From: a virus
Strand: one strand, 5' to 3'
IMG/VR virus record: IMGVR_UViG_3300025095_000001
Span: 1 to 31,225 of that record
Length of the DNA: 31,225 bases
Position 1 is the first letter of the stretch, and each line of letters starts with the position of its first letter. Below are positions 7,845 to 31,225 of the stretch, one piece after another. Both the position numbers and the translations under genes were made by a program. The notes beneath the pieces were generated by a model. The model was not told where the DNA came from, did not search any database, and saw only the letters and a program-made list of their open reading frames with translations.

Positions 7845-9356
7845 ATGTATAGTCCGTCTCTGTCTTTTGGTTATGAATCAAGGAAATGTAGATATAGGAT
7901 TTTGGAATATACTCATGGTATCGGTTTGGATCTTGGTTGTGGACATGAAAAGATAAATCCCGCAACAGCTATAGGTATTGACGCAGGCGGTAATGCTGCT
8001 AATATAAACATAGATTTATCTAAACCAGATGCTTTAAAAATATTCTCAGATGAATATTTTGACTATGTATTTTCCTCACATTTACTTGAAGATTTCTATG
8101 ACACAGAAACGGCACTAAGAGAATGGTGGAGGGTTATTAAACCCGGCGGACACCTTATTCTTTATCTTCCCCATAAATATTTCTATCCTGATTTTAAAGA
8201 CGATCCGGGTGTAAATCCAAATCATAAGCATAATTTTATCCCTACGGATATTATTAAGCATATGGATAAATTTGCAACTTATAATTTAGTTAAGAATGAT
8301 AGTTATAACGAGAAAGACGAATATAGTTTTGAAATGGTATTTGAGAAGACTGTATATCCGGTCAAGGTTGAAGCAAAGATAACTACAGCGCCCAAGGCAA
8401 TTGTTTTCAGATGGGGTGCAGTAGGTGATTTATTGCAAATTACGCCTTTATTATCGGTACTCAAAAAACACGGATATGAAGTTACTTTAAATTGTGCTTC
8501 AGATACTAAATTTGTATTGGAGAATAACCCCAATATAGATAAATTTATTTTACAGGAAAGGGATGCTGTTCCTAATTGGGAAATTGGGAATTACATGGAG
8601 TATGTCGGTAAGAATTATCAGAAGAGCATAAATCTATGTGAAAGCATTGAAGGTAGATTGCTTTATCTTCCACAGAATAATAAGTTTTATAAGTCCAAGG
8701 AAGATCGTGCGCATGATATAAATTATTTTGATGAGACGTTGAAAATTGGAGGTTTTGATGAAAAAGGCCTCAACCCGGAAATGTACTTATCTGAAGCCGA
8801 AGAATTCATGTTTAATATTTTTAGAAAACGCAATGAGAAATTTTTTAAGATTCTTTGGGCTTTAAAGGGTTCAGCGAATCATAAACTATTTGCTCAGGCG
8901 CAGGATATAATGCAGGCGATAGTAGATAAATACCAGGATGCAAGGATATATGTAGTAAGCGGTGAAGATGCTAATCCGATGGAATTTAAGTATGAACGAA
9001 TATTTTGTATGAGTAAGGTATGGAAACAACGTATAAGTTGTTTGGCTACTAAGTATGTAAACTTGGTGGTCAGCCCTGAAACAGGGATATTGACAGCATC
9101 CGGGTGTTTTGATACTCCCAAGATAGGGTTATTGTCTCACAGCAACAAGGAAAATCTTACCAAGTATTTCAAGAATGATTATAGCATTCAATCTAAGGCT
9201 CCATGTTCACCTTGTCATAGGATGTATCATGGCGCGGAATGTGATTTAGACAAAGATTGGAATTTACCTTTATGTACTACTATGTTTGATCAGAACGAAA
9301 TAATGGCAACGGTAGATAAGTTACATAAGGAGTGGTATGATATATCTGGGAAATAA
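7845..9356 (+). CDS. Fusion: SAM methyltransferase + GT9-type glycosyltransferase
   Basis: This 503-residue protein has two domains. Residues 1-170 are a class I SAM-dependent methyltransferase: motif I LDLGCG (28-33), the acidic end of strand 2 in IGID (43-46), and IKPGGHL (98-104). From about 183 a heptosyltransferase-like (GT9) domain begins with FRWGAVGDLLQITPL (188-202), the family's nucleotide-sugar fold start, and continues to the end. Its C-terminus carries four cysteines (C454, C457, C466, C477). GT9 enzymes normally add heptose or related sugars to lipopolysaccharide. Here the substrate is unknown. The second GT9 gene at 9759 is a paralogue. AAAGGAGGGG precedes the ATG. Confidence 0.85.
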   Translation: MYSPSLSFGYESRKCRYRILEYTHGIGLDLGCGHEKINPATAIGIDAGGNAANINIDLSKPDALKIFSDEYFDYVFSSHLLEDFYDTETALREWWRVIKPGGHLILYLPHKYFYPDFKDDPGVNPNHKHNFIPTDIIKHMDKFATYNLVKNDSYNEKDEYSFEMVFEKTVYPVKVEAKITTAPKAIVFRWGAVGDLLQITPLLSVLKKHGYEVTLNCASDTKFVLENNPNIDKFILQERDAVPNWEIGNYMEYVGKNYQKSINLCESIEGRLLYLPQNNKFYKSKEDRAHDINYFDETLKIGGFDEKGLNPEMYLSEAEEFMFNIFRKRNEKFFKILWALKGSANHKLFAQAQDIMQAIVDKYQDARIYVVSGEDANPMEFKYERIFCMSKVWKQRISCLATKYVNLVVSPETGILTASGCFDTPKIGLLSHSNKENLTKYFKNDYSIQSKAPCSPCHRMYHGAECDLDKDWNLPLCTTMFDQNEIMATVDKLHKEWYDISGK

Positions 9357-9762
9357 AATAGAACAGATAGATAATGCCAAAGTAAAGGACCGTAAGAAGA
9401 AATTTTACGGCCGTAGGTTCTTTATAAATGGAGAGTTTACTACAATAACTCGTTGTAGAATATGTGGCAAGGAGATACAGTATAAAGGTTTGAAGGCTCC
9501 GGCTCACTGTGGTAGTACTGCTTGTACTGAATGGTGGAGATTGCATTTTAAGCACGTATTTATGTCAAGCAATATGGTAAGGGATAAGGAATTTTTCGGC
9601 AGGAACAATGTAATTAAGAATATATTGAATAATGCTAAGAACACACGAGAAGTAGAAGATGGTATGAGGCGTGAACGTATTATCCCTGAGCAGATGATTA
9701 AACGTAAAGTTGATAGGAAGAGAATGGTGTTTGCCAATTTTAAATTAAAGGGGAGTGTATGA
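9337..9762 (+). CDS. Zinc-ribbon-type hypothetical protein
   Basis: This is a 141-residue, strongly basic protein. C40-x2-C43 and the pair C58 and C63 (with H57 nearby) look like a small zinc-binding site. The rest is Lys/Arg-rich helix. I do not recognise a family. A nucleic-acid-binding role is plausible from charge and the zinc motif but is not shown. The gene starts 20 bases inside the end of the methyltransferase-GT9 gene, with AAGGAG before the ATG, and its stop overlaps the start of the next GT9 gene, so all three should be translated together. Confidence 0.6.
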   Translation: MIYLGNKIEQIDNAKVKDRKKKFYGRRFFINGEFTTITRCRICGKEIQYKGLKAPAHCGSTACTEWWRLHFKHVFMSSNMVRDKEFFGRNNVIKNILNNAKNTREVEDGMRRERIIPEQMIKRKVDRKRMVFANFKLKGSV

Positions 9763-10778
9763 GGGAAAGGATACTAATTGTTAGGATTGGAAGGGCGTTT
9801 GGGGATTACATTATAATCTCAAGTATTTTTCATCACTTGAAAGATTTAGGGCATGAAGTATATTTTCTTGGAGGAGAAGCAGCAGAACAGTTATGTAAAA
9901 ATAATCCATATATAGATAAGTTTATCCTTTATAAAGAGAATACTGTTACTATAGATAAGTTGGAAGAATTTATACAATCAATTAAGACTGCTTATGAATG
10001 TGATCGAGTTATCGATTTTACTGGAAGTCTTGAGAATTCACTTTTGAGGCATCCAAATCAACCTGAATATAACGATACTAAAGAAGAAAGAATGAAAACT
10101 TGTAACAAAAATGTTTATGATTTTGCTTACAGTTGGGCTGGTTATTCTGAGATTAAAGGTAGGGTGGGTGAATTATATTTTGACGTTGAAGAAGAAAAGA
10201 AAATCAAGGAGCAAATAGATAATATTAGGGGTAAGAATGGGTTTGTTATATTGTGGGCGCTTGCAGGAAGTGGAGGGAACAAGGCTTATCCATATTATTC
10301 CGCTATATGGAACGAATTAATATGTAAATATAAGAATGTTAAAATAGTTTCAGTAGGAGACGAAACCTGCCGAATACTTGAAGTTGCTATAAAAGAACAT
10401 TCTAGATATATTCCAAAATCAGGTAAATGGAAAATGATTGAAAGCATGATAGCAAGTAAATATGTTGATCTTGTGGTTTGTCCAGATACAGGTATACACC
10501 ATTCGGCAATTTGCTTTAATACCAAAATTCTTTGCATCTTGGGTCATTGCACCAAGGAACACGTTTGTAAGTATTCCAAAAACGATTATAGTCTTGAATC
10601 AGATACAGATAAAGCTCCATGTTCTCCTTGTTTTCGTTTAGTATATTCTCCTTATTGGCAATGTTCAATAGAATCGGAGACCGGTACTCCAATTTGCATG
10701 ACATTAGGACAACCAAAGGAAAGAATTATTAAAACTATTTGTGGTATAATAGATGAGGCATATGATAAAAAAATGTGA
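9759..10778 (+). CDS. GT9 (heptosyltransferase-like) glycosyltransferase
   Basis: This 339-residue protein is full length for the GT9 family. The N-terminal motif is RILIVRIGRAFGDYIIIS (residues 4-21), and the second domain has VDLVVCPDTGIHHSA, the sugar-nucleotide-binding region (usually 'D.G..H'). It resembles the GT9 domain of the fusion gene at 7845: both share ILWALAGS or ILWALKGS, and both end in a cysteine set (here C288, C291, C302, C313) with CSPC(H/F)R. The paralogues probably arose by duplication and may add successive sugars. The acceptor is unknown. The gene overlaps its neighbours on both sides. Confidence 0.85.
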   Translation: MRERILIVRIGRAFGDYIIISSIFHHLKDLGHEVYFLGGEAAEQLCKNNPYIDKFILYKENTVTIDKLEEFIQSIKTAYECDRVIDFTGSLENSLLRHPNQPEYNDTKEERMKTCNKNVYDFAYSWAGYSEIKGRVGELYFDVEEEKKIKEQIDNIRGKNGFVILWALAGSGGNKAYPYYSAIWNELICKYKNVKIVSVGDETCRILEVAIKEHSRYIPKSGKWKMIESMIASKYVDLVVCPDTGIHHSAICFNTKILCILGHCTKEHVCKYSKNDYSLESDTDKAPCSPCFRLVYSPYWQCSIESETGTPICMTLGQPKERIIKTICGIIDEAYDKKM

Positions 10779-11424
10779 GACATGTGGAAAAGAATTTAAA
10801 ATAAACCCCTATAATATAAAAAGGGGATGGGGGAAATTTTGCTCTAGGGCGTGTAAAGATATTTCTCAAATTGGTGAAGATAATTGTAAATGTATTATTT
10901 GTGGTAAAAAGTTTCATAAAAGTTTAGCTTTATTAAAAAGAAATGCAGGTAGGTTTTGTAGTAAAAAATGTTATGGGGTTGGAAATTCTGGTAAAAATAA
11001 TACAATGTGGAAAGATAAAAAGATAAAAAAAACATGTTTAGTTTGCAACAAAAAATATAATACATACAACCATTATAGTGAATTTTGTTCTAGGAAGTGC
11101 AAGGGAGTGGTTCAGAGATTAATATTTAAAGGAAATAACCACCCAAATTGGTTAGGTGGTAAATCTTTTGAAACATACCCTAAAGAATTTAATTATTATT
11201 TAAGAGAAAAGATACGGGAACGGGATGGGTACAAGTGCCAAGTATGTGGAACACCACAAATAGAGTGTTATAAGAGTTTACAGGTTCACCATATAGACTA
11301 TGATAAGAAGAATTGCAGTATAAACAATTTGATAAGTTTGTGCAATAAATGTCACGCCAAAACAACTAGGGGTGATAGGATAAATTGGACAGAAACTTTA
11401 AAGGAGAAGATATGTCAATCGTAG
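10753..11424 (+). CDS. HNH homing-type endonuclease with zinc knuckles
   Basis: This protein has 223 residues from ATG 10753, or 220 from ATG 10762, which has GAGG just before it. Three cysteine modules come first: C8/C11/C30/C34, C47/C50/C69/C73 and C95/C98/C112/C116. A NHPNWLGG segment (129-136) resembles the short DNA-binding repeat of homing endonucleases. The HNH nuclease follows: C162/C165, LQVHHIDYDKK with H179/H180, Asn191/192, and C197/C200/H201. It probably cuts double-stranded DNA at a specific site and is likely a freestanding mobile nuclease. The gene looks more A/T-rich and more A-run-rich than its neighbours, which fits separate acquisition. Confidence 0.85.
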   Translation: MRHMIKKCETCGKEFKINPYNIKRGWGKFCSRACKDISQIGEDNCKCIICGKKFHKSLALLKRNAGRFCSKKCYGVGNSGKNNTMWKDKKIKKTCLVCNKKYNTYNHYSEFCSRKCKGVVQRLIFKGNNHPNWLGGKSFETYPKEFNYYLREKIRERDGYKCQVCGTPQIECYKSLQVHHIDYDKKNCSINNLISLCNKCHAKTTRGDRINWTETLKEKICQS

Positions 11425-12185
11425 CCGTCTGCCCTTTTTGTACGCGTCGGGTTATAACAAATTTAACTATAGACCTTGGTAAAGATTCCAAGGCGGTTTG
11501 GTATACTTGTAGTTGCGGTTGTTATTTCAAGAAAGACAAAGGAATAGACAAGAAGGTATTTGATGATAAATATAAGACGGAATATGCCAAGGGTCATGGT
11601 ATAAAGGAAAGACTGGATTATCAGCGCAAGGTGTATCTACCTTTAATTTCAGAACTAACACCGGGAAGAGTAGCGCTTGTAGTTGGTCCGACAATAGACC
11701 ACGATGTAGTAGAATTACGCAAATTAGGTTTCGTAGCAGAGGGTATAGACCTTATTAAGAACGATAACTCCAATATTTTTGTTGGTGATTTTGAGTATTT
11801 TGAATTCAAGAAGCAGTATGATATTATTTTCATGCAGGACGTTGTTCAGAGTTTTGACGATCCGATTAAGGCTATTATCAAAGCCAATAACTTATTGAGG
11901 CCCGGCGGTGTATTATTTATCTCCACTCCTGAACCTAGATTGATAAATGAGACTGGTTATAATATGTGGGGATGTTGGAATAATGCAGAGCATAATGTCT
12001 ATTTGACTAGCGACAATTTGAATAAATTGTTGCAGAATATAGGTATGGAAGTAGTGTTGAAGAGGGAGAACATAGAGAGAAGATTTAATTGTTGGAATAA
12101 TCATCATAGCATAAGTCAGAAGGTGTATGGAGGGAACAATGTCCAAGAGAACGAACTTACAAATATTGAACCGATGCCTGAATAA
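11412..12185 (+). CDS. Zinc-ribbon SAM methyltransferase
   Basis: ATG 11412 is chosen because AAGGAGA precedes it; this gives 257 residues. The N-terminus has C7-x2-C10 and C33-x-C35-x-C37, a zinc ribbon. The methyltransferase domain starts near 85: VALVVGPTIDHDV replaces the usual glycine-rich motif I, then GIDL (111-114) and LRPGGVLFISTP (162-173). Architecture and context (glycosyltransferase island) suggest methylation of a sugar or a glycosylated protein. The motif I loop is degenerate, so activity is probable but not certain. The start lies 13 bases inside the HNH gene. The last 47 bases overlap the tail tubular protein A gene. Confidence 0.75.
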   Translation: MSIVAVCPFCTRRVITNLTIDLGKDSKAVWYTCSCGCYFKKDKGIDKKVFDDKYKTEYAKGHGIKERLDYQRKVYLPLISELTPGRVALVVGPTIDHDVVELRKLGFVAEGIDLIKNDNSNIFVGDFEYFEFKKQYDIIFMQDVVQSFDDPIKAIIKANNLLRPGGVLFISTPEPRLINETGYNMWGCWNNAEHNVYLTSDNLNKLLQNIGMEVVLKRENIERRFNCWNNHHSISQKVYGGNNVQENELTNIEPMPE

Positions 12186-24178: not shown

Positions 24179-24670
24179 ATGGCTAAAAAAAAGGTTATAT
24201 TCTGGGATGTCAAGATGAAGGTAATATTTGGTCTATCTGTCCTCTGTATTATTCTGGGATATACTACATTTAGTAAACCAAAACCGATATCCGATAATCA
24301 TACTATCTCTGGGCAAGGAACAGGTGTAACAACGTCTACAACTCATTCTAACGCGGTTATAACCGGAGCAACTAGTGCTACAACTCTTCCTAACGGCTCT
24401 GTAGCGGTTTCAGGCAGTAATTTATCTATAAAAACTGCTTCTGATACGGCAACTAAGGCTATAACTGAATATGTATATAAAGACAAAGAGGTAATTAAAT
24501 ATAACTTTAACGCTATCTATATAGACGGATTAATTAAGTCTGATTTGACAAATGTTAATATAGGATTAGGTGTAACATTTGCTAATAGAGAATTTAAAAT
24601 CTTGGCAGGCTATTTCTTCTTGAAACCTGAGTATTTCTTGTCTGCCGGGAAGTCTGTGTTTGTTTTTTAG
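24179..24670 (+). CDS. Membrane-anchored Thr/Ser-rich protein
   Basis: This is a 163-residue protein with a Lys-rich start, an uncleaved-looking membrane span (VIFGLSVLCIILGYTTF, about residues 15-31), a Thr/Ser-rich linker (about 45-90) and a C-terminal domain of beta strands (NVNIGLGVTFANREFKILAGY). The layout matches an inner-membrane-tethered periplasmic protein, such as the last gene of a lysis cassette. I cannot identify it as a spanin: there is no second gene and no long coiled coil. Its last 77 bases overlap the opposing VRR-NUC gene. Confidence 0.55.
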   Translation: MAKKKVIFWDVKMKVIFGLSVLCIILGYTTFSKPKPISDNHTISGQGTGVTTSTTHSNAVITGATSATTLPNGSVAVSGSNLSIKTASDTATKAITEYVYKDKEVIKYNFNAIYIDGLIKSDLTNVNIGLGVTFANREFKILAGYFFLKPEYFLSAGKSVFVF

Positions 24671-25073
24671 ATAAATTCATAGCATCCATAATAACCTTAG
24701 TCTCTATAAACCACTTTCTAGCACGTTCTATCTTTTCAGGTTCAAGTTTATCCCATATTTCGTTTATCTTATATTGAACTTCAAATAGAGATAAGGCAAA
24801 AAACCCTAGCCCTCCACTTGCATTAATCCTGCATAGGTATTTAGTTTGTTTTGCTAATCTATCAGGATCTGTTTTATTACCCGGAACCTTGACCTCTATA
24901 GCCAGTATCCTGCCTCCCGGTAATACTCCTCCTATATCTGCTATTCCGGGACAAGGATGCTTCCAAAATCCACCCTTGTTATCAGGTATACCTGTTGTCA
25001 TATTGGGCCAACAGAATATACCTATAGATTCAAGCCAATCTCTTATTTCTTTTCTTATACTAGATTCTTTCAT
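24594..25073 (-). CDS. VRR-NUC nuclease
   Basis: This 159-residue protein contains a virus-type replication-repair nuclease fold. The conserved residues are visible: PGIADIGG (D46), ILAIEVKVPG (E60 and K62) and KQTKYL (Q76), the D...E-x-K...Q set of this PD-(D/E)XK group. Such nucleases act in phage DNA processing or repair. After the core (about 100 residues) a basic C-terminal tail ends in SRRNSLPRF. The start overlaps the stop of the gene before it (TAAATG at 25070-25075). The 3' end runs 77 bases into the opposing 24179 gene. Confidence 0.85.
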   Translation of the reverse strand: MKESSIRKEIRDWLESIGIFCWPNMTTGIPDNKGGFWKHPCPGIADIGGVLPGGRILAIEVKVPGNKTDPDRLAKQTKYLCRINASGGLGFFALSLFEVQYKINEIWDKLEPEKIERARKWFIETKVIMDAMNLSKKQTQTSRQTRNTQVSRRNSLPRF

Positions 25074-25339
25074 TTAAACTCCTTTACAACTGGTTTAGTT
25101 GTCTTTATCTCTTCCATCTCTATACACCTCTTTCCCAGTTTATCACACACATACTCATGTTTACCGATTATCCTTTGTTGCTCCTTTAATACTTGGTCAA
25201 GATGTTTTTTTATCTCATCAGCCAGCTTCTCTATACTTACAACATCATCGTATAAATCCTGCATGTCCTTGGGTTTATCCTCCATATTATACTTCTTATC
25301 ATTATATGAGAATATCCTCTGTGCCTGTTCCTTCGTCAT
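25070..25339 (-). CDS. Hypothetical helical protein
   Basis: This is an 89-residue protein rich in Lys, Asp and Glu, predicted coiled coil or paired helices (residues 25-60, VVSIEKLADEIKKHLDQVLKEQ). A C44-like pair of cysteines (EYVCDKLGKRC) lies near residues 63-72. ATG 25339 overlaps the preceding gene's stop (ATGA), with AAGGAGG nearby. I do not recognise a family. It is translationally coupled upstream and downstream. Confidence 0.6.
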   Translation of the reverse strand: MTKEQAQRIFSYNDKKYNMEDKPKDMQDLYDDVVSIEKLADEIKKHLDQVLKEQQRIIGKHEYVCDKLGKRCIEMEEIKTTKPVVKEFK

Positions 25340-25515
25340 ACTTCCTCCTTTTTCTGTCTCACCATACTATCACTAATTTCTTTAATACATATTTCACAGT
25401 AATACGCCTTAGTAGTCTCATCTCTCTTTAATATATGACCATGAGAACACTTGCGATTGAATATTGCATCATAATTATTGTTCCATTCAGGAGTTGGTGG
25501 TTTACTGCGTATCAT
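25336..25515 (-). CDS. Small zinc-finger-like protein
   Basis: This 59-residue protein starts at ATG 25515 and is joined to both neighbours by overlapping stop-start codons. The segment KCSHGHILKRDETTKAYYCEIC (residues 22-43) has C23, H25, H27, C40 and C43, the spacing of a small zinc-binding site as in phage HNH-like or zinc-ribbon proteins. Without the downstream helix of HNH nucleases it is probably a structural or nucleic-acid-binding zinc finger. The role is not known. Confidence 0.6.
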   Translation of the reverse strand: MIRSKPPTPEWNNNYDAIFNRKCSHGHILKRDETTKAYYCEICIKEISDSMVRQKKEEV

Positions 25516-25685
25516 TTACCACCTCTTAACATAAACCATATTAATTGCCATGGAAATTTAACAATAATATTAAAATGGGTAATCATATATCTGATTCTAC
25601 CCCATAATGTTCTACGTTTTAACGGAAAAGGTAGTAATAATTTATTTGGATAACTCTCGGACCAGAATTTATCGTCATAATTCAT
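25512..25685 (-). CDS. Small basic hypothetical protein
   Basis: This 57-residue protein starts at ATG 25685, just after a GGGGAGGG sequence that ends the preceding gene, and its stop overlaps the next start (ATGA). It has a basic, aromatic-rich middle (LKRRTLWGRIRYM) and a hydrophobic C-terminal third (FNIIVKFPWQLIWFML) that could form a short membrane segment. I do not recognise a family. Confidence 0.55.
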   Translation of the reverse strand: MNYDDKFWSESYPNKLLLPFPLKRRTLWGRIRYMITHFNIIVKFPWQLIWFMLRGGK

Positions 25686-26317
25686 CTTCTCACCCTCCCC
25701 AATATCTCTTTCAATACTTCCATTCTTTTTTCATATGGAAGTCCCGGCGCATGGAATATGAAATCTCCCTCTTCCCATTTACCTCCTTTATCATCCTCAT
25801 AAGGATATAACCAATACGGCATGGCATTGATTTCTTTTTGATGTATAACTGCCACACCTCTAGGGTCCTGACCTATGAGATTCTGCATAACATGCTGGTC
25901 ATTAGCGAATATATCATGTTTGTTATTATCGAAACTCTTAGCAAGTCCAATTACAGAACCGATAAATTGTACTGCCTCTCCACACGATCTAATCAGTATA
26001 ACGTCATTGTTTATACCATTTACATCTTTACCTATAATCATAAATTTATCATCACCATATTTAGTGATAAGAGATTCTATTTGAATATTCATATTGCTGA
26101 AGCATGTGTCTACACCCATAAATAATAGCCAATCGCAATATTTCAACTGGTCTATTATCTGTATCTCTTTCTCCATAACATATTGTTTAAAACTGAAGTA
26201 TCTAGGTAGCACTAGTTGATACCTATTTTTCATGCAATATTCCAATCTATTAGGAGCCGTTAATTGCATCATCTCCCAAGTAACATCATCTGATGGACAG
26301 AGTACAGTTATTCGCAT
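25682..26317 (-). CDS. GT34-like glycosyltransferase
   Basis: This 211-residue protein has a good GGAGG before its ATG. The conserved GT-A features of the GT34 (GMA12/MNN10) group are visible: CDWLLFMGVDTCFSN (61-75), where the usual DxD is replaced by GVDT; GINNDVILIRSC (101-112), the acceptor/donor loop; ANDQHVM (138-144); and GDFIFHAPG (184-192). GT34 enzymes transfer galactose, xylose or mannose onto glycans. Donor and acceptor here are unknown. Its position downstream of the epimerase and transketolase genes suggests that it attaches the sugar they make. Confidence 0.8.
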   Translation of the reverse strand: MRITVLCPSDDVTWEMMQLTAPNRLEYCMKNRYQLVLPRYFSFKQYVMEKEIQIIDQLKYCDWLLFMGVDTCFSNMNIQIESLITKYGDDKFMIIGKDVNGINNDVILIRSCGEAVQFIGSVIGLAKSFDNNKHDIFANDQHVMQNLIGQDPRGVAVIHQKEINAMPYWLYPYEDDKGGKWEEGDFIFHAPGLPYEKRMEVLKEILGRVRR

Positions 26318-26505
26318 GTTACCTCCGCACTATGATGATTTTCAAGGGGGGTATAGTTTGGAAGCAGTATTTCAACTTCCTCTTGAAGACCATCGAGTGT
26401 TACACCAATTGTTTTTATTATTTTAAAATCATATTGTTCATTAACAGATACCAAGATTCGTTTATCGCACTTCCTAAGTAATTTAATTAGTTCTTTTACT
26501 CGCAT
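26308..26505 (-). CDS. Small hypothetical protein
   Basis: I use ATG 26505, which follows AGGAG(G)AAA, giving 65 residues; the upstream in-frame ATG at 26544 lacks such a site. It has a helical start MRVKELIKLLRKCDK, then strands (RILVSVNEQYDFKIIKT). The end reads into the GT34 start by 10 bases. Its family is not known to me. Confidence 0.55.
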   Translation of the reverse strand: MRVKELIKLLRKCDKRILVSVNEQYDFKIIKTIGVTLDGLQEEVEILLPNYTPLENHHSAEVTCE

Positions 26506-26728
26506 TTTCTCCTCCTTTTTTAGATTCAATAAATTTGACACCATAATACCTGCCTATATTTGAACCAAATATAGGTCTTTTATCTATACTTCTAAGATAT
26601 AGATAATCTTCATATTCGTATTCACTTATAACTTTAAACCCGTTTAGAGATACAAATGGATGATTTTTTTCATTATACTTGCTTTTTCTTTCTAAATACA
26701 ATTTACATAATTTTTCTATTATATTCAT
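26483..26728 (-). CDS. Hypothetical protein
   Basis: This 81-residue protein has a clear GGAGG before ATG 26728. It has a basic helix first, then an acidic aromatic run (SEYEYEDYLYLRSIDKR) and a Gly/Tyr segment (GSNIGRYYGVKFIESKK) with mixed strands. The end overlaps the next gene by 23 bases. I do not recognise a family. Confidence 0.55.
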   Translation of the reverse strand: MNIIEKLCKLYLERKSKYNEKNHPFVSLNGFKVISEYEYEDYLYLRSIDKRPIFGSNIGRYYGVKFIESKKGGENASKRTN

Positions 26729-26732
26729 ATCA

Positions 26733-26957
26733 TTACCTCCAACTATTTGTATTTGTTTTTACTCTATTACTAAAGAATTCTTTAATTAACGCCCAAATTA
26801 TTTTGATAATATCCCTCCTATCAATTTCCATAGCCCAATGTTCTTTTTGTTTACCATCTTTAGAATGAAAACTTGTCCATAGTCTGCCATCAAATATTTC
26901 AAACCAATAATTTGTTCTATCTACCCATTGGTTATGACATATTATTCTTGTTCGCAT
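26733..26957 (-). CDS. Hypothetical protein
   Basis: This 74-residue protein starts at ATG 26957 with GAGGAGG before it, 16 bases inside the epimerase gene. It is rich in Trp and Arg (WVDRTNYWFEIFDGRLWTSF). A hydrophobic stretch (DIIKIIWALIKEFF) could be amphipathic helix. Trp-rich small proteins of this kind may bind nucleic acid or protein surfaces, but no family is visible. Confidence 0.5.
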   Translation of the reverse strand: MRTRIICHNQWVDRTNYWFEIFDGRLWTSFHSKDGKQKEHWAMEIDRRDIIKIIWALIKEFFSNRVKTNTNSWR

Positions 26958-28075
26958 ATCATCCTCCTCATGCCTTCCTCCAATGTAGTCTTAGCCTTCC
27001 AACCTAATTTTTCTTCTGCTATTCTTGGATTACCATACCATGCACTTAAATCCCATTGCCTTTTCTCCATAGAACCGAAACTTAAATGCCCGGTACAGTT
27101 AAATATCTTATTAGATATTTTTGCCACCTCTTCCATATTAGTCTGAACTCCACTTGCTATATTTATCACCCACCCCTTGACACTATCTACCTTTACTGCC
27201 GCCAAAATAAGGGCCTCTATGCAATCGTCTATATAGACAAAATCTCTTGATATATCTTTATCTACAAAATGAGGATAGCATCCTCTTTTACCATATTCTA
27301 TAACCTTAGGTATCAACCGTTCTTTATCTTCCAATGGTCCATAGATCGAATATAGTCTAAGGTCTACAACAGGGAAGTTAAGGACTTGACCGTAATACTT
27401 AATCAAATAACTTACTCCTATCTTGGCACAAGCATAATCGGAATTTGGTACTAAGGTATCTGTTTCCCTAGGACCTGAGCAGTTAATACCATACTCCGAC
27501 TGACTACCGGCTTGAACAAACGCATCATAACCAATTTCCTTAAGTATTCTGAGTAGGTTGTTTGTTCCCATATAGTTGATATTATATATCTGGGTGCTAT
27601 CTGTCTGTATAGATGTACCGCCGTAGGTTGTAAGGTTGAATATGGTGGCAGGTTTTAAGAAGTTAAGCATATGTTTCATCTGTTCATAGTTGGTTATATC
27701 GGCGAACAGTAAATTGCTTTCTTCTTGGTTGCGCCAACTGTAAGGCTGACGTGAACAGCCGTAGATATCCTCTCTGAACCGTTTAAGATGTTTATATAAG
27801 GAAGCACCTATGAATCCTGATACTCCGACTATTAGGATAGGGCCTTTGAGTTGCATGGCTATATCTCGTTGCCAAACATATTCAGGACAAATTGCCATTT
27901 TTATATCTTTAATTGGGATAACAGAAGTAAGACATACACCTGAACCAAGTCCAGTATCTCCCGGTTTTGGTTCCAAAGTGATACCAGGTTCACCGCCAGT
28001 CATGGTATATGGATACGACTGAACTGTTCTTACCTCACCACAATGGATTACTTTATCTCCTTTCTTATATCCCAT
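26942..28075 (-). CDS. NAD-dependent sugar epimerase/dehydratase with N-terminal extension
   Basis: I start at ATG 28075 (377 residues), after GAGGAGG; an upstream in-frame codon at 28168 would overlap the transketolase gene by over 100 bases. Residues about 79-377 are an extended short-chain dehydrogenase: GVSGFIG (84-90) for NAD binding, GSQSEYG (190-196) with the Ser, YACAK (214-218) for the catalytic Tyr and Lys, and DISRDFVYIDD (274-284) for sugar-nucleotide binding. Residues 1-78 are a separate small domain (KKGDKVIHCGEVRTVQSY, possibly SH3-like) not usual in the family. It would convert a nucleotide sugar. Confidence 0.85.
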   Translation of the reverse strand: MGYKKGDKVIHCGEVRTVQSYPYTMTGGEPGITLEPKPGDTGLGSGVCLTSVIPIKDIKMAICPEYVWQRDIAMQLKGPILIVGVSGFIGASLYKHLKRFREDIYGCSRQPYSWRNQEESNLLFADITNYEQMKHMLNFLKPATIFNLTTYGGTSIQTDSTQIYNINYMGTNNLLRILKEIGYDAFVQAGSQSEYGINCSGPRETDTLVPNSDYACAKIGVSYLIKYYGQVLNFPVVDLRLYSIYGPLEDKERLIPKVIEYGKRGCYPHFVDKDISRDFVYIDDCIEALILAAVKVDSVKGWVINIASGVQTNMEEVAKISNKIFNCTGHLSFGSMEKRQWDLSAWYGNPRIAEEKLGWKAKTTLEEGMRRMICEQE

Positions 28076-28943
28076 TAACCGCCTCCTCAATGCTTTTCTT
28101 ATCCAATCTATTCTCCTTCTGATGATATGCCTGTGAGCCATAGAGACCGTTCTGATAGCCCTTGGCATACAGATGTTTGAACACTATATTATCCTTAGCA
28201 TTCGCCAACATCATCAACTCATGCGCTATCATCTCCCCTATGCCTCCACGTTTAACGTGTTCTTCTATGACGATCAATTTCTCTGTTCTTGCGATACTAG
28301 CTATCACTTCATTGTCTAATGTAAATGGAACTTCGTTGATGGCAAACACATCTGCGCCTAAGCCTATGGCGTTGAGAACTACCGGACCAATTCCTATTAT
28401 TGTGGCCTTATTACCTGCACTTAATTTCCGTATGGGATAATACTCTCGCCACATACACGTATCTTCACCATATCCCAACCTTAAGTATGCTGGTTCTGAC
28501 TGGTACATCATCCAATTTGTAACAAAACTAACATCGTTATTGTTACACGGCACATAACACTTCATATTCTGAAGACAGGACATTATCGCTATGTCTTCAA
28601 TCGAGTGATGGGTAGCACCCATTATGCCGTAGCCATAGCCTCCGCCGTTACCCACGATCTTAACATTCATATTATGCAGACAGACATCTACCTTAATCTG
28701 CTCTAGGCATCTGGCTGTAACGAACGGCGCTATGCTATATACCACCGGCTTAAGCCCCTGTGATGCCATCCCGGCAGCCATAGACATCATATTAGCCTCT
28801 GCTACCCCACAGTTTATGAATCTATCTCCGATAGCCTTCTGTAGAGACTCACAAGCCATAAAACCTACGTCACCTGTAAGGAACCGAATCTTGTCGTCTG
28901 CGATAGCTAACTTCTCTATAGTGCTGAAGAATTCTTTTCTCAT
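28065..28943 (-). CDS. Transketolase-type protein, C-terminal half
   Basis: This 292-residue protein corresponds to the pyrimidine-binding and C-terminal domains of a transketolase-like thiamine diphosphate enzyme. Visible signatures: CGVAEANM (45-52) with the catalytic Glu49, GATHHSIEDI (109-118), and a C-terminal domain from about 170 with AINEVPFT and IVIEEHVKRGG. It must pair with the N-terminal half encoded at 29312. ATG 28943 overlaps the stop before it (ATGA). Split pairs of this kind are common in bacterial sugar gene clusters. I see no phage precedent in my own knowledge, so check it. Confidence 0.85.
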   Translation of the reverse strand: MRKEFFSTIEKLAIADDKIRFLTGDVGFMACESLQKAIGDRFINCGVAEANMMSMAAGMASQGLKPVVYSIAPFVTARCLEQIKVDVCLHNMNVKIVGNGGGYGYGIMGATHHSIEDIAIMSCLQNMKCYVPCNNNDVSFVTNWMMYQSEPAYLRLGYGEDTCMWREYYPIRKLSAGNKATIIGIGPVVLNAIGLGADVFAINEVPFTLDNEVIASIARTEKLIVIEEHVKRGGIGEMIAHELMMLANAKDNIVFKHLYAKGYQNGLYGSQAYHQKENRLDKKSIEEAVNGI

Positions 28944-29137
28944 CTACGCCCCCTCTTAATAATACTCATTTCTTTTCTCTCTGAATCATATAAATTTCGT
29001 TTAACGCTATTAAACCTTTTCTTGTGGCAATATCTGCACTGTTGTTCTAGGTAAAAACTCATATCTATACTTGTAGTTTTCCAGACAGTGGTTGTTTTCC
29101 ACCCGTGTATACCTAACCAACATAGGAATTTACGCAT
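28940..29137 (-). CDS. Small zinc-knuckle-type phage protein
   Basis: This is a 65-residue protein. The start MRKFLCWLGIHGW resembles a small phage family with an N-terminal 'LLG.H.W' motif and a CxxC. A second pair lies at C34 and C37 (QQCRYCHKKR). The C-terminus is very basic (RKEMSIIKRGRR). The site GGAGGAGGATG lies just before ATG 29137. It is coupled by overlapping codons to the transketolase C-half. The function is unknown. Confidence 0.6.
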   Translation of the reverse strand: MRKFLCWLGIHGWKTTTVWKTTSIDMSFYLEQQCRYCHKKRFNSVKRNLYDSERKEMSIIKRGRR

Positions 29138-29315
29138 TTTTCATCCTCCTCCAAATCTCATACAACAACTCCTTGGTTGTATACTTCTTAAATTCCCAAC
29201 CTTGACACTTACAAAGTGTTACCGGGATATTGTTGGTCCATGTGGTAAACATAACCCCATCCCTAATAATGGGTATCTGACCACCACACTTCTTGCAGTT
29301 GGGTAACATGCTCAT
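29130..29315 (-). CDS. Zinc-ribbon-type small protein
   Basis: This 61-residue protein has C7-x2-C10 and C35-x-C37, the spacing of a zinc ribbon. The C-terminal half is a basic helix (TKELLYEIWRRMKNA). ATG 29315 overlaps the stop of the transketolase N-half (ATGA). It lies between the two transketolase halves and might act as an adaptor. That is a guess from position. Confidence 0.6.
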   Translation of the reverse strand: MSMLPNCKKCGGQIPIIRDGVMFTTWTNNIPVTLCKCQGWEFKKYTTKELLYEIWRRMKNA

Positions 29316-30136
29316 ATGTCCACCTCCCCCATAGCTATCTCATATTGTTCCTTATTCATCGGTAGATAATGCCATCTATAGTCGTGTTCCATAAATGACA
29401 CACCGTCTCCCTTAACTGTATGCACTACCGTGCAGTTGGGAAGTGAGGATATGAAGTCATCCACGTTAAGAATATCGTTTACATCTCCCAACCCCTGCAA
29501 CTGGTTCTTGTCGACTATTATATGCAGGTTCTTTATCTTGTGTTGTTTGATAAACAGCGCCGCTTCGTGAGTTTGTCCTTCTTGGCAATCGCCTTCACTA
29601 AGGAGGCAGTACACTTGTCCTTTTGTAACCGACGCAATTCCAATAGAGATAGATAACCCATGTCCGAGAGATCCGGTACCAAATATGATGTTACAAATTT
29701 GCTTGTTACACGGAGGGTGCGCAGTAAGTCTCGTTCCGTCCTTGTAGTACGTTTCAATTTCTTCATCTAATATTACCCCCTTGGCCCATAGGACCGCGTA
29801 TAGTGCTGATGCCTTGTGTCCCGGTGATAAGACAAAGATGTCTTCGTCTTTCATGACATTAAAGAACAGGTTGATGAGTATATCCACACAGGATAGAGAG
29901 CTACCTATATGACCCGAATGTGCCTTGTAGTGCATCGTGAGAAGCTTTTTTATTACTTTCTTACGAATATCTATATTGTCAAATCGACATTTGCCATGAC
30001 ATAGTTCCTCATCCCTTTTGCACCTATAAGGATGACCCTTCATAGCTAATGGGCTAAGTCCACCTACAAATATCATACTTAGTTTATCTTGATACCTTTC
30101 TTGACATTCTTCAATTTCCATATCCAGTACCCCCAT
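29312..30136 (-). CDS. Transketolase-type protein, N-terminal half (TPP-binding)
   Basis: This protein has 274 residues from ATG 30136. The thiamine diphosphate domain is clear: KAHSGHIGSSLS (71-82), SPGHKASALYA (104-114), FGTGSLGHGLSI (152-163) and the cofactor motif EGDCQEGQ (181-188) with N211. Residues 1-57 add a Cys-containing segment (C39, C46, C50) not needed in the family. The start is uncertain: ATGs at 30121 and 30076 are alternatives, the last removing the overlap with the radical SAM gene. The partner half is encoded at 28065. Confidence 0.85.
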   Translation of the reverse strand: MGVLDMEIEECQERYQDKLSMIFVGGLSPLAMKGHPYRCKRDEELCHGKCRFDNIDIRKKVIKKLLTMHYKAHSGHIGSSLSCVDILINLFFNVMKDEDIFVLSPGHKASALYAVLWAKGVILDEEIETYYKDGTRLTAHPPCNKQICNIIFGTGSLGHGLSISIGIASVTKGQVYCLLSEGDCQEGQTHEAALFIKQHKIKNLHIIVDKNQLQGLGDVNDILNVDDFISSLPNCTVVHTVKGDGVSFMEHDYRWHYLPMNKEQYEIAMGEVDI

Positions 30137-31225
30137 TTCCCGCCTATTCTACTCCAATCACCATGAGTAATATGATCTAAACCACGTTTAATGTGATAAA
30201 TATGTTTAACTATCCAATGTAGTTTAGGGTATTTTACATAGTATCGTTTTAACATTAAATCAAATAACCACCTAGGCGGTTTAACTATAGTTAATAAATA
30301 TAATATTATATTCTGCATTGTAGGTTGAGTTTGCGTATATGGAGTTGTCGGTAAATTAGGTAATTTCTCATATAACTTAGTACCGGGAAACGAACGTAAA
30401 GAGAATAAGGTTATTGTATATGGTCTATCTAAATCATATAGTAGTTTCTCTGTCTTACCGTAATCCACAATACCTTGTAATGGATTATCAGTTATAATAT
30501 CAAATGCAGGCGGGACCATATTATACTCTCGTCCAATATTTATCAAAATATCAGCTGATTCTCTTATCCTTCCTACGGTCGTTGTTCTGTTATACATATT
30601 CAACATATTTTTTGAACCTGATTGTATACCCATTCTACAACGATTCATGCCTGCCTGCGCCAATCGTTCAACTTTCTGTTTATCAACAGTGTTCGGATGC
30701 ATACCATAGATAACAAATGGCAGGTTAATACGTTTTTTCCATTCAACGCAAAATTGTATAATAACATCAAGGGGTAGAGATATGAAATTATCATCATCAA
30801 ATGCTATGGTTGTAACGAAAGGATATTGTTTTAATGCTAACTCTATTTCTTCTATTATCCAGTCTACCGATTGATACTTGAGTTTTTTATATCCGGGATC
30901 AAGACTAATGAGCGCGTCATTGGCACAGTAAGAGCAACTGAATGGACAGCCGGTAGTCCAGAGGGTTCTGAAGAGCGTTCCATTATAAATGGCGTAGTCA
31001 ATAGGTGTGAGAACTCTAAATAACTTGGTTCTAAAATCATATATTTTGCAGTCGTAGCCTTGATATGAATGTCTTTGAATATTGGAGACACCCAAGTACG
31101 CACTTGTCCATTCTTCCCCTTCCCCACGGCAAATAATGTCCGCATATTTACTAGCCTCCTCTGGATAAAGGGTTGGATGCGCTCCTCCCCATACTGTTTT
31201 AATATTTATATTATTATATTTAATT
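30079..31225 (-). CDS. Radical SAM enzyme with B12-binding-type N-terminus (partial)
   Basis: The frame is open from the stop at 30079 to the right edge of the window, so the true start lies outside. The first visible residues (from 31225) include WGGAHPTLYPEEASKYADII and RGEGEEW, the hallmark end of a cobalamin-binding domain in B12-dependent radical SAM proteins. Then TTGCPFSCSYCAND (about 30958-30919) gives the 4Fe-4S motif C-x3-C-x2-C. GMHPNTVDKQK and CRMGIQSGSKN match the usual radical SAM barrel elements. Such enzymes make methyl transfers or rearrangements on unactivated carbon. Here it heads the sugar operon, so a sugar or acceptor is a plausible substrate. Confidence 0.85.
   Translation of the reverse strand, partial: IKYNNINIKTVWGGAHPTLYPEEASKYADIICRGEGEEWTSAYLGVSNIQRHSYQGYDCKIYDFRTKLFRVLTPIDYAIYNGTLFRTLWTTGCPFSCSYCANDALISLDPGYKKLKYQSVDWIIEEIELALKQYPFVTTIAFDDDNFISLPLDVIIQFCVEWKKRINLPFVIYGMHPNTVDKQKVERLAQAGMNRCRMGIQSGSKNMLNMYNRTTTVGRIRESADILINIGREYNMVPPAFDIITDNPLQGIVDYGKTEKLLYDLDRPYTITLFSLRSFPGTKLYEKLPNLPTTPYTQTQPTMQNIILYLLTIVKPPRWLFDLMLKRYYVKYPKLHWIVKHIYHIKRGLDHITHGDWSRIGGKWGYWIWKLKNVKKGIKIN

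Follow-up and report, generated by a model that had tools for sequence, protein, structure and literature searches.

Introduction

Phages are known to carry sugar cassettes. The described systems closest to the one considered here are the split-gene transketolases, in which a thiamine-binding N half and a pyrimidine-domain C half are encoded by separate genes. In miharamycin and amipurimycin biosynthesis such enzymes have been proposed to branch keto sugars by two-carbon transfer, with no in vitro proof, and 13 uncharacterised candidates, all from Streptomycetes, have been reported (PMC12247030). Viral transketolases are usually read as genes of central carbon metabolism or the pentose phosphate pathway (PMC4053976, PMC8319345, PMC12615777).

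The DNA analysed here is a complete phage record of 31,225 b (IMG/VR record IMGVR_UViG_3300025095_000001, referred to in full as the window), which ends in a leftward operon where a split transketolase is found among genes for sugar-type enzymes. We prefer to read it, with a probability of about 0.5, as an operon that serves the phage in sugar modification and has a relative among bacterial glycan operons; the transketolase, a short-chain dehydrogenase/reductase (SDR) and a radical SAM enzyme would modify a sugar and a GT34-like enzyme would transfer it. The transketolase shares its two-chain architecture with the split-gene enzyme of Carboxydothermus hydrogenoformans (6YAK/6YAJ), but is about 32% identical to it, lacks about 36 amino acids (aa) of the N half and sits among sugar genes. 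With the miharamycin and amipurimycin enzymes (PMC12247030) it has the sugar-modification setting in common, a likeness of description; those belong to Streptomyces antibiotic clusters, where the activity is a proposal too. In the literature searched, which was incomplete, nothing was found on split transketolases in phages, nor on a transketolase-based phage cassette that combines a fixed SDR type and a GT34 with mini transketolases in many phages and a matching bacterial operon.

The Split Transketolase Operon

The genes, all on the minus strand of the window, are as follows (ORF, open reading frame; TKN and TKC, N and C halves of the transketolase; ThDP, thiamine diphosphate).

30079..31225, minus: putatively B12-binding radical SAM enzyme whose 5' end is lost where the contig stops (Radical_SAM 1.3e-12; CPFSCSYC)
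L002:6374-7795: the whole radical SAM gene, 473 aa, on an extension contig
29312..30136, minus: TKN, ThDP-binding, start uncertain (Transketolase_N 2.5e-15; fold nearest 6YAK)
29130..29315, minus: Cys-rich small ORF between TKN and TKC, 4-base overlap with TKN, no Pfam or PHROG match
28940..29137, minus: small ORF, 4-base overlap with TKC (phrog_15735, unknown function)
28065..28943, minus: TKC, pyrimidine and C-terminal domains (Transket_pyr 2.4e-26; Transketolase_C 7e-07)
26942..28075, minus: extended SDR of the NAD epimerase/dehydratase family, SQSEYG (Epimerase 1.2e-37); its ORF opens at 28168
26733..26957, minus: small ORF, no Pfam match
26483..26728, minus: small ORF, no PHROG match
26308..26544, minus: small ORF (weak phrog_22847)
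25682..26317, minus: GT34-like glycosyltransferase of GT-A fold, GVD replacing DxD (Glyco_transf_34 4.5e-09)
24594..25073, minus: nuclease or Holliday-junction-resolvase-like gene at the downstream end of the operon (phrog_93 2.5e-11, phrog_5702)

A sequence-only reading had placed the radical SAM, TKN, TKC, SDR and GT34 genes here in one direction and tightly packed, and both ORF positions and Pfam matches for each of the five bear this out. Adjacent genes nearly touch or overlap by a few bases, and most starts are preceded by Shine-Dalgarno-like sequences. The five interleaved small ORFs had been passed over. The last gene belongs to phage DNA metabolism and not to sugar metabolism.

Both transketolase halves have 6YAK/6YAJ as best PDB matches, and Pfam, PDB and fold agree that the two are separate genes. 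The TKN lacks the stretch of about 36 aa found in bacterial split TKNs, while alignments show that the conserved His, Asp and Asn positions (H24, H55, H88, E134/N159, H204) are kept, as are the catalytic or cofactor residues E49 and H112 of the TKC. An AlphaFold model of the TKN, built on an alignment of window and phage proteins, has a predicted local distance difference test (pLDDT) score of 84 and is nearest to 6YAK, the Carboxydothermus enzyme.

The SDR probably starts at 28075 (GAGGAGGCGGTTAATG) and not at 28168, and carries an N-terminal extension of about 75 aa (window 27850-28075) that is missing from the bacterial operon copies described below. It has the features of an extended nucleotide-sugar SDR, namely GVSGFIG (GxxGxxG), YACAK (YxxxK) and a catalytic Ser in SQSEYG, and is 37-41% identical to the SDRs of bacterial transketolase operons. 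In place of the T-D/S-E motif of 4,6-dehydratases (RmlB/GMD) it has SQSEYG.

The radical SAM protein has the CxxxCxxC cluster motif (CPFSCSYC); its B12-binding domain falls below the Pfam cut-off in the end-cut window copy and above it in a full-length bacterial orthologue (L283). The GT34-like protein scores 36.8 bits against PF05637 (cut-off 23) and has a GT-A fold, and we call it GT34-like because DxD is replaced; its phage relatives read ECD, GCD or GTD, with the second Asp alone invariant across the phage group. That each enzyme has its family motifs, as was claimed at first, is thus slightly too strong in view of this protein and the shortened TKN. The model of the GT34-like protein, from an alignment of the same kind, has pLDDT 88; its nearest PDB entry is 2P6W (E 5e-11), a capsid glycosyltransferase of PBCV-1, followed by the xyloglucan xylosyltransferase XXT1 (6BSU). 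Domain 1 of PBCV-1 A064R is a retaining beta-L-rhamnosyltransferase (PMC9614988), so that the nearest solved fold is that of a viral enzyme transferring a 6-deoxyhexose; it is from an algal virus, is about 15% identical and has a typical DxD, and its function is not transferable.

A Related Operon in Bacteria

Two Pseudomonadota genomes (G071/L283 and G175/L285) carry B12-radical SAM, TKN, TKC and SDR genes in the same order as the window; together with the 13 viral contigs described below, they support a co-inherited gene set. Taken in this order, identities between L283 and the phage proteins are 33% (over 467 aa, E 3e-93), 37%, 41% and 38%. This uncharacterised operon shares four families in one order with the phage, but differs in its SDR-GT2 fusion, its full-length TKN and the lack of a GT34; no GT34 homologue was found in the bacterial loci compared. 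The GT2 domain reads like a polyprenyl-phosphate sugar transferase, and the fusion gene is followed by a methyltransferase gene and then by large proteins without Pfam match, which from their sequences would be membrane proteins. Shorter versions are TKN-TKC-SDR::GT2 (L319, L320) and TKN-TKC-methyltransferase-GT2 (L318). In a FastTree tree of TKN and TKC the window groups with four bacterial sequences of the glycan-operon type, with 99% local support. Most of eight other bacterial genomes checked have a full-length transketolase beside the split pair, and in these the pair is therefore not the housekeeping enzyme. Full-length radical SAM orthologues also occur in bacterial loci without transketolase (L310-L313; G071 gene order) and thus form a separate glycan-locus family, which rules the enzyme out as a strict partner of the transketolase.

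Miniature Transketolases and Sister Cassettes in Viruses

In a profile search for viral TKNs, of which the best 80 of 297 matching stretches were kept, the frequent neighbours were sugar genes: DegT aminotransferases, PseB-like and other SDRs and GmhA-like and HldE-like genes, as well as GHMP kinase, RmlC-like, PP-loop, methyltransferase and NeuB families. The C half was called at <200 aa in 36 viral loci. Many of these short halves have about 155-170 aa and the pyrimidine domain only, a few being perhaps cut by contig ends or ORF calling, and in most of the same loci the TKN is likewise short, at about 202-240 aa. Split-type TKNs were found in 84/399 Pseudomonadota and 55/297 Bacteroidota genomes, where open frames rarely fall below 250 aa (one among the bacterial matches listed, 212 aa, G997); the miniature form therefore looks mainly viral, within the sample and thresholds used. 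In the GenBank phage collection most transketolase matches lay in records labelled as phage, on fragments that lacked annotation or looked bacterial, and GT34 had no match.

A scan seeded with the SDR, and with neither transketolase nor GT34, found 13 other viral contigs (e.g., L186, L201, L210) with the cassette GT34 - SDR1 - methyltransferase - mini-TKN - mini-TKC - SDR2, the GT34 gene being cut by the contig end in L173 and L191. SDR2 of these cassettes reads TDEVYG, belongs to the RmlB dTDP-glucose 4,6-dehydratase family in L186 and is a dehydratase by motif in 12 of the 13; that of L183 is truncated. The two cassette contigs tested (L210, L172) have head or tail genes of T4-like type. Like the window, the T4-like cassette brings GT34, an SxSEYG SDR and a split transketolase together in a phage; it differs in gene order, in having an RmlB-type dehydratase, a TKC without C-terminal domain and no radical SAM enzyme, and in the phage backbone. 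A transketolase is found within 5 kb for 14/14 SDRs that carry S-x-[S/A]-E-Y-G, against 1/62 for other SDRs (SDR-selected viral loci; Fisher 2e-14, a p value that overstates the pairing because the contigs form about four groups and the seed alignment came partly from transketolase-linked SDRs). The separation of the two SDR types is clear, and the SxSEYG-type SDRs of L013 and L014 adjoin a transketolase as the SQSEYG protein of the window does. Since unrelated phages and bacterial sugar-coat operons alike have the core set, it is a real module.

Other arrangements were seen in passing. Two viral contigs (L037:9902-11176, L064:6926-8188) encode a single-chain mini transketolase of about 420 aa that consists of the N and pyrimidine domains, with NeuB (Pfam-supported in L037) a few genes away. 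In L010-L012, L015 and L020 a mini split transketolase is found in a conserved row with a DegT aminotransferase and a PseB-like SDR, with a PP-loop protein in some and near a terminase gene in L010. In L016:325-4163 and L019:203-2773 a radical SAM/SPASM gene accompanies the split transketolase, joined in L016 by a PfkB kinase, beside genes common to both contigs.

Location of the Operon in the Phage Genome

Contig L002 (IMGVR 3300002093_000170) is 100% identical to the window across 9,178 bases and adds 6.6 kb upstream, which supplies the whole radical SAM gene, as hoped from rightward extension. Upstream lie, in order, a pentapeptide-repeat-like protein, small ORFs, a Pam3_Gp34-family protein (by position like a single-stranded DNA-binding protein), a primase-helicase with CHC2, Toprim and MCM domains, and the radical SAM gene, whose start overlaps the primase-helicase stop by 4 bases. 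A second contig, L240 (IMGVR 3300009285_000921), links window position 1, the terminase side, to the L002 region, and the three contigs have zero mismatches where aligned. The sugar operon thus lies between the replication genes and the structural genes and terminase end of a single phage of at least about 42.6 kb; a search with the helicase as bait to close the genome gave no additional contig. Since L002 and L240 place the operon in this way, the sugar genes are phage genes, in agreement with the sequence-only reading, and the possibility that the right arm is host DNA flanking a prophage is ruled out. The pentapeptide-repeat-like protein (L002:2-379), with NADLSNAKL repeats, lies at the end of L002, on the upstream side of the replication genes.

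Proposed Pathway and Alternatives

The phage likely modifies a nucleotide sugar and then transfers it. This substrate would be handled jointly by the split transketolase and its SDR partner of SxSEYG type: a ketose phosphate would donate a two-carbon hydroxyacetyl unit, which the transketolase would place on a keto group of the (6-deoxy) nucleotide sugar, and reduction or epimerisation of the product would fall to the SDR. The radical SAM enzyme may make one more change to the sugar, extra relative to the sister cassettes, and the GT34-like enzyme would transfer the sugar in the cytoplasm, conceivably to a virion protein or a host surface glycan; the nearness of its model to a viral capsid 6-deoxyhexose transferase speaks for this reading. 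Among the parts that we infer, the nucleotide-sugar substrate is a strong one, C2 branching a moderate one and the radical SAM role a weak one; taken by itself, C2 branching is a tentative suggestion. In the sister cassettes a dehydratase would yield a 4-keto-6-deoxy nucleotide sugar to whose ketone the transketolase adds the two-carbon unit, SDR1 would reduce or epimerise it and the methyltransferase and GT34 would finish the product. There the dehydratase is a phage gene, whereas the host would supply the keto sugar to the window phage. Among the ORFs examined in about 42.6 kb, where not every small ORF was scanned, no dehydratase, 4,6-dehydratase, nucleotidyltransferase or sugar kinase was found, and the first steps of the pathway must therefore be the host's; the set had at first been called complete, which it is not.

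Several findings weigh against our reading. The missing dehydratase leaves the window without one of the two marks of a branched-sugar cluster, a keto-sugar dehydratase and a thiamine-dependent carboligase. The radical SAM orthologues outside transketolase loci and the GVD of the GT34-like protein have been described above, and many phage and bacterial split transketolases adjoin heptose genes. Sugar branching lacks biochemical proof for every transketolase, and the link of split transketolases to branched sugars, on which the sequence-only reading drew, is a published proposal (PMC12247030). Inactivity in relatives, which was also considered there, is touched by one contig: L240, otherwise identical, has a gap of 3,362 bases with one end in the radical SAM gene and the other in the SDR gene. 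Two further junctions in L240 have 517 bases absent and an unknown stretch at the helicase gene; all three (13995, 8733, 7686) are essentially without homology, and may be true deletion variants or assembly faults.

The main rival is heptose supply, in which the split transketolase would provide sedoheptulose 7-phosphate, host GmhA and HldE would turn it into nucleotide-activated heptose, the SDR would modify this and a GT9 or GT34 would transfer it. Such a route fits the two GT9-like proteins of the window and the content of viral and bacterial split-transketolase loci: of those compared, 23 have GmhA-like SIS genes, and further ones have HldE-like and GHMP-kinase genes. GmhA, HldE and a nucleotidyltransferase were not found in the window phage, and neither the closest bacterial operon (L283/L285) nor the 13 sister cassettes have GmhA within the cassette, which makes it an unlikely explanation. 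Glycosylation of phage DNA bases by the GT34-like enzyme would suit its cytosolic GT-A fold, the position in a replication operon and the 4-base overlap with the primase gene; it is rather improbable, as the ORFs examined yielded no gene for base hydroxymethylation or for a thymidylate-synthase-like enzyme, and the neighbours of the sister cassettes, where tested, are head and tail genes.

Adjacent replication genes and the customary view of viral transketolases would also agree with a transketolase that feeds the pentose phosphate pathway for nucleotide synthesis, the neighbouring sugar genes being unrelated passengers. We give this little weight, as the nearest relatives are in glycan operons and coexist with full-length transketolases, and the pairing with a single SDR type is strict. 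That customary view may often be wrong, because many viral transketolases are split, stand beside sugar-nucleotide enzymes and group with glycan-operon paralogues. Least probable is that the genes are chance-captured cargo that has lost its function, for which the L240 deletion, the reduced TKN and the GVD motif could be cited: no ORF is broken in either the window or L002, many phages share the short TKN and the GxD/ExD transferase, the fold is kept in the models and Shine-Dalgarno sequences precede most starts.

On the sugar-modification reading a broader proposal, also tentative, is that phages encode a dedicated pathway, often with a mini two-domain split transketolase, that builds C2-branched nucleotide sugars and adds them to virion or host glycans. 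If true, to our knowledge no viral branched-sugar pathway would precede it, and the uncharacterised bacterial glycan operon would be accounted for by the same pair of enzymes. Compact phage subunits (about 160 and 205 aa) with fixed partners, namely SDR, dehydratase and transferase, are material for testing whether a transketolase adds a two-carbon unit to the ketone of a sugar. If functional, they would represent a minimal transketolase that dispenses with the C-terminal domain, and phages would gain a new means of altering surfaces.

A Second Glycan Block

Between head and tail genes the window has a further set of glycan genes (7845-12185), on the plus strand, with an HNH endonuclease between the GT9 and the last methyltransferase:

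7845..9356, plus: methyltransferase (Methyltransf_11 1e-10) with a GT9-like C-terminal part, as read from the sequence
9759..10778, plus: GT9, heptosyltransferase family (Glyco_transf_9 2.8e-07)
11385..12185, plus: methyltransferase (Methyltransf_23 1.6e-16)

The phage therefore invests in glycans twice. Across much of this block G+C falls to 0.33-0.35.

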